A DNA stretch of 64,000 nucleotides from Methylosinus trichosporium OB3b. GTDB lineage: Bacteria; Pseudomonadota; Alphaproteobacteria; Rhizobiales; Beijerinckiaceae. The notes beneath the pieces are model-generated. The model saw only the letters and a list, made by a program, of their open reading frames with translations, had not been told where the DNA came from and made no database searches. The stretch is from the NCBI RefSeq assembly GCF_002752655.1, contig NZ_CP023737.1, positions 1,116,001-1,180,000 on the forward strand, in the 5' to 3' direction. Positions 31,375-47,233 of the stretch are shown one piece after another (position 1 is the first letter of the stretch; the number at the start of each line of letters is the position of its first letter). A program made the position numbers and the translations under genes.

Positions 31375-31472
31375 GGTGAGTTGCTTGGAGGCTTTGCGGG
31401 GAGTTGCTGAAAGTCTTTGATTTGATGGTGGGCGCGACAGGGATTGAACCTGTGACCCCTACGATGTCAACG
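31375..31472. repeat. Left attachment repeat of the satellite
   Basis: 98 bp identical to 47136-47233 except at two positions (near 31403 and 31410). It begins GGTGAGTTGCTTGGAGG and ends at TGTCAACG in the anticodon arm of tRNA-Val. It therefore holds a 3' tRNA fragment, not a functional tRNA gene. Confidence 0.9.
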
Positions 31473-31646
31473 CGGCGCTGCGCCGTTTTCTCACCTTTTC
31501 CAGCATATTCTCGGCTACGATAATTAACTGTTTAGCTGCCCATTTCCCTTTTCGTTCTTTTTCTCGGCTGTGCTCGCCTCTTCCCCTGTTTCCGATCTCG
31601 TGGTGAGTTTATGGTGAGTTAAATGCTCACCGTAAGGGTCGCCCCA

Positions 31647-32921
31647 ATGCCGAAATTGACGAAGTCTGTCGTCGAAACCGCCGAGCCTCGGCCGAAGCAG
31701 TTCACCATCTGGTGTTCCGAGCTGAAGGGCTTCGGCGTCTACATTCTTCCGACCGGCAAGCGCACCTATTTCGCGGACTATCGGAACGCGGACGGCTCCC
31801 GCAAAAGAATGACGCTCGGCCGGCATAGCGTCATCACGTGCGAAGAAGCGCGCAAGCTGGCGATGGCGGCGCTCGGCGGAGTGGTGAAGGGCGCCGATCC
31901 TCTGACAGAGCGATCGTCTCGACGGGCGGCGCTCACCGTGTCCGATTTGTGCGACCTCTATCTCGAGGCGGCGGACAAGGGTCTGGTGACGACGCGGTTC
32001 CACAAGCCGAAACGGGCCTCGACGCTCGCTGTCGACCGCGGCCGGATCGGCCGGCATATCGTCCCGCTGATCGGATCAAAGAAGGCCGATCGGCTAACGC
32101 GGGCGGATGTCCAGCGGATGACCGACGACATCGCGGCCGGAAAGACGGCCGGCACCTTCAAGACGAAGTTGCGCGGTAAGGCCGTGGTGACCGGCGGCGC
32201 CGGAACCGCCCGCCGCGTGGTCGAGCTGTTCGGCGGGATATGGACCTGGGCGGAACGTCGCGGTCATGTCGTCGGACGAAGCCCGACGCATGGCGTCGAG
32301 ACGCAGAAAGGCGACCCCAAGGATCGCATTCTCTCTCCGGCGGAACTCGCCCGCCTCGGCGCCGTGCTGAAGGAGAAGGAGGAGGCTCTTCCTTTCGCGG
32401 TCGCGGCCGTCCGGCTGATCTTGCTGACCGGCGCGCGCCGCGAGGAGATTGTCGGGTTGCGCTGGAGCGAGTTCGATGCAGCCGGCTCTTGCCTTCGCCT
32501 CGAGCAGACGAAAACCGGCCGGTCTATGCGTCCAATTGGCTCGCCGGTGGTCGCCATTCTCTCCGCCCTGCCCCGCGATGAAAACGAATTCGTATTCCCG
32601 AATCGCAGCGGCAAGCGCCCCGCGGACCTCAAAAAGCGAATCGCCGAGCTGTTCGACGCCGCCGGGGTCGACGACGCGAGAAGCCATGATTGCCGCCGGA
32701 CCTTCTCCACCACGGCCGACGAACTCGGCTACAGCGAGGCGACCGCCGGGTCGATCATTGGACATGCAAGCCGGGGCGTCACCGCTCGGCATTACATCCG
32801 CCGGCCGGACGCCGCGCTGGTAGAGGCCGCGGACAAGGTGGCGAAGCTAATCGAGAGGCGCATGAACGGGATAGAGGCGCAGGTGGTCGAGCTGCCGCGC
32901 GGGAAAAAGGACGAGGCGTGA
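31647..32921 (+). CDS. int: Tyrosine recombinase/integrase
   Basis: A 424-aa phage-type integrase: N-terminal DUF4102-like arm-binding domain (about 1-90), core-binding domain (about 95-200) and catalytic domain with R264 (TGARREE), K289 (TKTGRS), H347-x-x-R350 (SHDCRR), H373 (IIGHAS) and Y383 (ARHYIRR). It would integrate and excise the element at the tRNA-Val repeats. ATG at 31647 has AAGGG 8 nt upstream; an ATG eight codons earlier is possible. Confidence 0.95.
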   Translation: MPKLTKSVVETAEPRPKQFTIWCSELKGFGVYILPTGKRTYFADYRNADGSRKRMTLGRHSVITCEEARKLAMAALGGVVKGADPLTERSSRRAALTVSDLCDLYLEAADKGLVTTRFHKPKRASTLAVDRGRIGRHIVPLIGSKKADRLTRADVQRMTDDIAAGKTAGTFKTKLRGKAVVTGGAGTARRVVELFGGIWTWAERRGHVVGRSPTHGVETQKGDPKDRILSPAELARLGAVLKEKEEALPFAVAAVRLILLTGARREEIVGLRWSEFDAAGSCLRLEQTKTGRSMRPIGSPVVAILSALPRDENEFVFPNRSGKRPADLKKRIAELFDAAGVDDARSHDCRRTFSTTADELGYSEATAGSIIGHASRGVTARHYIRRPDAALVEAADKVAKLIERRMNGIEAQVVELPRGKKDEA

Positions 32922-33153
32922 AATCGGATTTGGCAGTCCGTAGCCGCTAAAGTTGCTAAAGCCGCTAATTTCGAGGTCGAGGCCGCTACCCCTGCTACTC
33001 TCGCTACCCGGCGCGGCAAAAATTTCCGAGAAAGCGCCCGTTTGGGGAACTGAAGAAACTGACGAAACCTCGCCAAGCGTATCGGCAAGCGATACAAACG
33101 CCTTGCCCTCCGTATCATTGAGCGATACATAGAGGCCAGTAACAAGGCTGCTT
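32922..33153. other. Gap after integrase with one satellite repeat copy
   Basis: No supported gene. The stretch carries a copy of the satellite-specific repeat at 33018-33074, small GCTAAAGxxGCTAA direct repeats near 32945-32970, and short GTATCGxxxxGCGATAC inverted sequences near 33077-33090. The region could include excision or replication control sites; this is inference. Confidence 0.4.
33018..33074. repeat. Satellite-specific repeat, copy D0
   Basis: About 57 bp similar to the three copies at 39306-39497. The shared core reads AACTGAAGAAACTGACGAAA here. This copy is in intergenic DNA, the others inside a gene. Confidence 0.7.
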
Positions 33154-46701: not shown

Positions 46702-47105
46702 TTGGTCGACAAACGAACTGTCTTTCCGTTCAATGAAAAATCGCCTGATTCGATAGGCAGTTCGTAGCGCTTCGTTCCACTCTCTTTAATTGAAAATCCG
46801 CCAGAGCTTTGTTCCACTCTTCCTTTGTTTCCGCCACCGTGGGTGCTTAATTGTGAATTACAATTCGGACAAAGAAATCGCAGATTTTTGGGCCGATTGT
46901 CGCCGTTGACTCCATTTTTATGGTCTAGAACCATACGAATCTTTTTACCGTTCCAATCCTGAGAGCCAGAATGGAGCAGACAGCTTGAATTGTCGCAACG
47001 CTCGGGACCTTCCCCGTGGGCTAATCGCCAATCCAAGTATGCTTTTCGGACATTGCGTCTCTTGCCGAGGTAAACTAGCCGATTGGCGCGGGGTCGCTGA
47101 GCCAT
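46662..47105 (-). CDS. HNH endonuclease at the right edge, possible cargo
   Basis: A 147-aa protein with MVLDHKNGVNGDNRPKNLRFLCPNCNSQL, an HNH motif, and an additional Cys pair upstream (CDNSSC). It is convergent with terL and overlaps its end. Base composition is visibly more A/T-rich than the rest of the element, which suggests separate acquisition. It may be a homing-type nuclease or defence cargo. Confidence 0.85.
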   Translation of the reverse strand: MAQRPRANRLVYLGKRRNVRKAYLDWRLAHGEGPERCDNSSCLLHSGSQDWNGKKIRMVLDHKNGVNGDNRPKNLRFLCPNCNSQLSTHGGGNKGRVEQSSGGFSIKESGTKRYELPIESGDFSLNGKTVRLSTNQTHKNPSGRSVS

Positions 47106-47135
47106 CGATAGCTCTCCGAGGAGCGGTGAGTTTTT

Positions 47136-47233
47136 GGTGAGTTGCTTGGAGGCTTTGCGGGGACTTGCTGTAAGTCTTTGATTTGATGGTGGGCGCGACA
47201 GGGATTGAACCTGTGACCCCTACGATGTCAACG
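47136..47233. repeat. Right attachment repeat of the satellite
   Basis: 98 bp matching 31375-31472 with two mismatches. Its right 47 bp are the 3' half of tRNA-Val(GAC), up to the anticodon arm, so the tRNA is rebuilt on integration. The other 51 bp lie beyond the tRNA 3' end. Confidence 0.9.

Follow-up and report, generated by a model that had tools for sequence, protein, structure and literature searches.

The window analysed here, a stretch of 64,000 nucleotides from the chromosome of Methylosinus trichosporium OB3b, carries an element that we consider likely, from its gene content and that of its relatives, to be an intact integrated phage satellite, one that would make its own heads and borrow the neck, the tail and the lysis functions of a helper phage. 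The integrated element occupies positions 31375-47240 (15.76 kb) and is flanked by 105-bp direct repeats with a start-to-start spacing of 15,761 bp. The left repeat (attL, 31375..31479) includes a duplicate of the 3' portion of tRNA-Val, and the right repeat (attR, 47136..47240) overlaps the intact tRNA-Val(gac) gene that is the integration target (47187..47261, minus strand), so that the boundaries drawn in an earlier sequence-only reading proved to be real. The two copies agree at 100 of 105 positions (95%), including a perfect run of 62 bp at 31411-31472. The congeners offered no strict empty site, since the window genes to the right of the tRNA sit elsewhere in them, and it is the repeats and the tRNA gene that carry the claim of integration. 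Taken with the presence of an integrase, these att repeats indicate that the element is site-specifically integrated at the 3' end of the tRNA-Val gene. About 88% of its length is coding, its GC content is 0.619 (0.656 in the remainder of the window), and the tRNA was the sole match in an Rfam search. The host genome measures 5.18 Mb in four contigs.

The left half of the element combines integrase, toxin-antitoxin-like, regulator-like, replication-type and unmatched genes, on the plus strand unless noted. It begins with a tyrosine integrase bearing an arm-binding domain (31647..32921; PF00589, 5.7e-16; Arm-DNA-bind_3, 6.9e-15, both Pfam; also predicted by the gene caller) and continues with a HigB-like toxin gene (33228..33434, Pfam) that is probably broken: within 33154-33434, the start of the 93-aa relative in the congener element L220 is matched in another frame, and the window copy thus seems frameshifted relative to that of L220. 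The adjoining HigA-like antitoxin gene (HTH_3; 33449..33769, Pfam) is open, and its L220 copy is 93% identical. On the minus strand lie a PemK/MazF-like toxin gene (33912..34352) and an Xre-type (HTH_3) repressor gene (34419..34646), both recognised by Pfam, the latter divergent from the rightward genes. These are followed by three small genes, o126, o87 and o70 (34792..35641), and by a weakly MerR-like regulator (35904..36431) whose Pfam match (E 0.0037) falls below the cut-off. The next protein (36511..36780) had been labelled AlpA-like; it gave no direct Pfam, PHROGs or NCBIfam match, its family profile matches the RdfS excisionase (E 6e-9), and its predicted model is a winged helix. After o184 and o105 (36777..37642), which have relatives in close elements, comes a DUF3987 protein (37642..39264; 1.4e-88; DNA helicase in PHROGs), likely a replication ATPase by sequence. 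The half closes with o153 (39267..39728, predicted by the gene caller), a single-strand DNA-binding protein (SSB; 39725..40141; 5.7e-8) and o158 (40191..40667). Seven left-half genes (o126, o87, o70, o184, o105, o153 and o158) gave no family match, and a PADLOC search of ten small genes yielded no defence matches.

The right half holds the head and packaging genes. A portal protein (40738..41991; PF04860, 3.7e-87) is followed by a head-maturation protease fused to an HK97-fold major capsid protein (41988..43577; PF04586, 2.5e-23; PF05065, 8.6e-81), a 146-aa jelly-roll protein (43590..44030; phrog_5707) that is a probable capsid cement or decoration protein, an HNH endonuclease (44292..44558, with the start set by the gene caller and the frame open from 44031; 1.2e-5) found in all nine relatives searched, the P27-family small terminase TerS (44711..45109; PF05119, 3.1e-26) and the large terminase TerL (45106..46701; PF20441, 5.1e-30; PF03354, 3.5e-15), all on the plus strand. 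A second HNH-like gene, HNH2 (46662..47105, minus strand), was recovered by the Pfam/PHROGs scan at the right end, where close relatives carry c27 after TerL, a conserved gene encoding some 94 aa. The integrase, DUF3987, SSB, portal, protease-capsid, HNH, TerS and TerL genes were thus found by Pfam as open frames in the order first described, to which we add the 146-aa gene, HNH2 and the HigBA- and PemK-like genes, absent from the original listing.

The terminase-last arrangement, also pointed out beforehand, is confirmed in the window and prevails among its relatives. These were gathered with two capsid-profile scans, which found 130 relatives among viral contigs and 119 among genomes and from each of which the best 80 were taken; judging by record titles, about 75 of the best 80 genome records are alphaproteobacterial, one is from Massilia and the others carry no assignment. 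Gene order was counted over the 139 loci whose portal, capsid and TerL genes share a strand, after removal of 19 loci (duplicates or short own-genome stretches, together with L015, a contig of 4.7 kb that has the order TerS-TerL-portal) and with 70 further loci set aside as incomplete. Portal-capsid-TerL is the order in 127 of the 139. Nine of the others are terminase-first, two of them (L226 and L227) being circular plasmid records cut at that point, and three run capsid-portal-TerL. Within the 127, two or more tail families are present in 48 loci, one in 8 and none in 71, although in metagenomic contigs the tail-less status may reflect contig truncation.

The absence of tail, adaptor and lysis genes, on which the original interpretation turned, holds in every search made. 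A six-frame search of the element at E 0.1 gave no match to profiles for adaptor (phrog_442), head closure (phrog_25, phrog_161), neck or tail completion (phrog_5), tail terminator (phrog_176), tape measure (phrog_10574), tail tube (phrog_8985) or major tail (phrog_158), the clusters carrying PHROGs names. Pfam and PHROGs scans, by which lysis was checked, found no tail or lysis gene among those of the element (for HigB, HigA, PemK and Xre, Pfam alone was used). The profiles were built from relatives, since PF10145, the tape-measure family, is a poor detector here: it retrieved nothing from the own genome, although BLAST identifies a tape-measure relative in the prophage residing there. The tail and lysis modules that a complete temperate phage would have between its att sites are not seen in the element, and without recognised tail, neck or lysis genes it should borrow them from another phage.

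The missing adaptor deserves separate consideration. Six-frame profiles place an adaptor in 55 of the 71 tail-less, terminase-last loci and a closure protein in 26, while 16, the window element among them, have no adaptor. L024, whose capsid resembles that of the window most closely (92% over aligned columns), does carry one, between the 146-aa gene and HNH, an interval where no other gene is called in the window. The integrase of L024 is nearly the same as that of the window (dN 0.03 over 292 codons). Its DUF3987 protein, like that of L006, is so strongly diverged (0.67-0.70) that both look like replacements. Parsimony on the quick capsid tree counts nine changes of adaptor state among the tail-less loci, so loss or gain of this gene has recurred.

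Elements of the same genus provide further evidence that this gene set is maintained. A close capsid (76-82% identical) occurs in three other genomes (G002, G004 and G007) besides the own one, out of 10 in the genus, the remaining six having weaker capsid matches only; the capsid of one congener shows full identity with its M. sporium DSM 17706 counterpart across the aligned columns. Of the elements in the three genomes, both ends were found for L220 (15,560 bp, tRNA-Thr, 50-bp repeat) and L221 (14,415 bp, tRNA-Val(cac), 55-bp repeat), whereas L219 ends at tRNA-Arg and its left end lies beyond the fetched stretch; none of the three has a tail-profile match. Compared with them, dN/dS is 0.14-0.20 for the portal, 0.19-0.24 for the capsid, 0.02-0.20 for TerS and 0.05-0.08 for TerL, and, with two comparisons each, 0.17-0.18 for the 146-aa protein and 0.12-0.16 for DUF3987, at dS values of 0.5-1.0; the integrase is looser (0.41-0.43). 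Against the remote L103, head and packaging genes give 0.23-0.44, with dS of at least 1.2 and near saturation. The head and packaging genes are therefore under purifying selection relative to the congener elements (dN/dS 0.02-0.24), which argues against prophage debris. A further congener element, L218 (G002:C2:341001-361000, 2702-17650; 15.0 kb), lies in the same tRNA-Val(gac) and has an integrase 61% identical to that of the window, an AlpA-like gene, DUF3987 and SSB; it has no capsid or terminase match, and in their stead encodes a protein of 1,096 aa with matches to tape-measure families.

The att-bounded tail-less sisters, the purifying selection and the tail-less nearest relatives all uphold the proposal of a satellite with its own heads. 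Sisters with tail and lysis genes had been named as the observation that would speak against it, and to a degree they exist: 48 of the 127 terminase-last loci carry at least two tail families. These are more remote, however, and the nearest relatives carry none. The tail genes that some relatives carry in the same layout might still suggest that the element is the decaying remnant of a full prophage stripped of its tail and lysis genes, and the apparently broken HigB would fit such decay. Yet within a single genus this tail-less gene set turns up at several tRNA genes, the head and packaging genes show low dN/dS and the att repeats remain 95% alike, and we regard decay as the least probable of the readings weighed. 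Scarcely more probable is a use of the heads other than tail-borne transfer, such as phage interference or uptake of DNA-filled heads by another route. It would agree with the want of a detected connector and with the finding that 9 of the 16 connector-less loci (L009, L050, L060, L064, L135, L137, L140, L141 and L153) have capsids that fall outside the close tree group of the window, but the portal and packaging genes are conserved, and interference alone would not need them.

A more serious contender, if still an improbable one, is an ordinary capsid-forming phage-inducible chromosomal island (cf-PICI) that needs tails only and whose connector function, supplied by a diverged adaptor or by another protein, has escaped recognition. 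All other head and packaging genes match, a recognisable adaptor is present in 55 of the 71 tail-less relatives, and the seven genes with no family match leave room for an unrecognised one; an adaptor diverged beyond the reach of the profiles, or hidden among those genes, is a point against our preferred explanation. On the other hand, the slot that holds the adaptor in L024, between jelly-roll and HNH, contains no other called gene in the window, and an adaptor is missing from 16 of the 71 tail-less loci. The jelly-roll protein occurs beside an adaptor in many relatives and is hence unlikely to replace it.

Under the preferred explanation, that of a satellite borrowing neck, tail and lysis, the cycle would begin with the activity of a helper phage, upon which the Xre and AlpA-like regulators would let the element excise. 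DUF3987 and SSB would then help replicate the excised form, and the element terminase would fill the element's own heads with the genome of about 15.8 kb. With no adaptor or closure of its own, the helper neck and tail would attach to the portal of the element, and helper lysis would release the particles. The suggestion that such an element builds heads and steals helper tails therefore stands as regards the heads, and has to be amended as regards the tails: no connectors were detected, so tails alone would be insufficient and a helper neck would be needed.

The likeness to cf-PICIs, which had been proposed at the outset, is likewise supported in outline. Both share integrase, capsid, protease, portal, TerS, TerL and HNH genes and lack a tail, and the AlpA homologue of cf-PICIs may have a counterpart in the AlpA-like protein, excisionase-like and winged-helix by profile and fold. 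Cf-PICIs are also similar in size to the element. No Pri-Rep is recognised in the element, which has instead its DUF3987/SSB replication module, and its fused protease-capsid gene and terminal terminase may set it apart. Above all, cf-PICIs carry head-tail connectors in their published descriptions (PMC10690885, PMC10448857) and the element has none detected, for which reason we do not class it among them; its mode of action is probably theirs, with a helper neck needed as well as a tail. Its standing as a capsid-forming phage satellite is thus supported in outline, with cf-PICIs compared through published descriptions only. The cf-PISP satellite-plasmids of Vibrio, as presented in PMC13230959, resemble it in being tail-less, in having their own head and terminase genes and in size (15.8 kb), and differ in being episomal and in encoding adaptor and closure, whereas the element is chromosomal and has no connectors. 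The Streptomyces satellites MulchRoom and MiniFlayer also encode capsid and packaging genes and, according to PMC10690885, possess a head-tail adapter, have no primases and reside in Streptomyces hosts, all unlike the element; the same text has the MulchRoom tail thought to come from a helper. By sequence, the nearest solved capsid is that of the Rhodobacter gene transfer agent (RcGTA, E 2e-75), but the GTA-like cluster in the host genome differs from the element in possessing genes for adaptor, closure and tail. This cluster (L184, G000:C1 at about 839-855 kb) combines capsid and portal with connectors and tail genes. Literature on Methylosinus prophages and capsids and on alphaproteobacterial cf-PICIs and phage satellites, for the most part outside subscription journals, describes no such element.

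The screen of the host genome for a helper, recommended when the element was first noticed, returned a 42-kb tailed prophage in the same chromosome (C1:1,532,475-1,574,481, 51-bp repeats), with TerL, portal, adaptor, closure, tail terminator, tape measure, central tail fibre and endolysin genes. It could possibly supply neck, tail and lysis and is a helper candidate, co-residence being weak evidence: none of the 17 prophages of its strain mobilised the cf-PICI EcCIEDL933 (PMC11389934), so a co-resident prophage need not be the helper. A second small island of about 9.24 kb (G000:C1:1523165-1532486; L179, L180) sits in tRNA-Gly(ccc) and abuts the 42-kb prophage, which uses another part of the same tRNA-Gly gene. 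It carries replication-initiation-like, capsid, protease, portal and integrase genes and an Xre gene about 81% identical to that of the window; terminase and tail genes were not seen among its scanned genes, two lying outside the scan. Among phage records, none reached 60% identity, the best match listed being about 35% for TerL (1,895 records) and 39% for the capsid (1,973 records). TerL relatives (43-52%) do occur, together with head genes, on circular alphaproteobacterial plasmids of 16.1, 16.9, 17.5 and 23.4 kb. The circular plasmids L224, L225, L226 and L227, from Paracoccus, Roseomonas and Methylorubrum, are typed as non-mobilizable and, with head and terminase genes similar in kind to those of the element, are candidate episomal satellites.

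Across the relatives gathered, boundaries were found in 21 of 156 eligible loci, of which 19 were retained after dropping L100, which duplicates L221, and a repeat in L219 that arose by chance. These 19, L220 and L221 included, measure 14.4-18.4 kb, a range partly set by the method, because loci were fetched to at most 10 kb from the capsid in each direction; elements above about 22 kb could not be bounded and are absent from the count. No tail-profile match was found in 15 of the 19; the boundary of L124 is a repeat lacking a tRNA, no portal was matched in L169, and L159 is tail-bearing only through a cluster (c60) called tail by position and not by family match. A single tail-less clade is rejected (p-AU 9.3e-5) on a carefully built capsid tree with 33 selected rows, and a quick capsid tree of 188 rows, 30 of them unlabelled and with three sets of identical rows bearing differing labels, places at least 18 changes of tail label on well-supported branches. 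Tail genes have changed repeatedly across the family. Three att-bounded loci of 15-18 kb, L167 (3769-21506), L116 (2213-19142) and L139 (4490-19533), combine head genes with tail-tube or tape-measure genes. L167 spans 17.7 kb from one att site to the other and encodes major tail, neck, terminator and tape-measure proteins, and two of the four small genes after the tape measure were scanned and fell into virion structural and tail-chaperonin families. No tail tip or lysis gene appeared among the genes scanned in the three loci (two downstream in L167, none in L139), and these could possibly be satellites that borrow only the tail tip. In a search with TerL only, a score of at least 580 bits for the family of the element was reached by 24 of the 297 genomes that were sampled within the order of the window, and its relatives are also filed as viral contigs or as non-mobilizable plasmids.

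These observations lead us to put forward, tentatively and at somewhat less than even confidence, that the alphaproteobacteria hold a large family of head-making satellites with graded self-sufficiency, from elements with no connector, through those with adaptor and closure, to those with tail tube and tape measure, whose helpers would supply neck and tail, tail only or tip only, and in which tail genes come and go. Were this to hold, satellites need not bring their own head-tail connector, and many head-making elements would be expected in alphaproteobacteria. It would also mean that a foreign portal must accept the neck of a helper, which would make head-tail compatibility directly testable.
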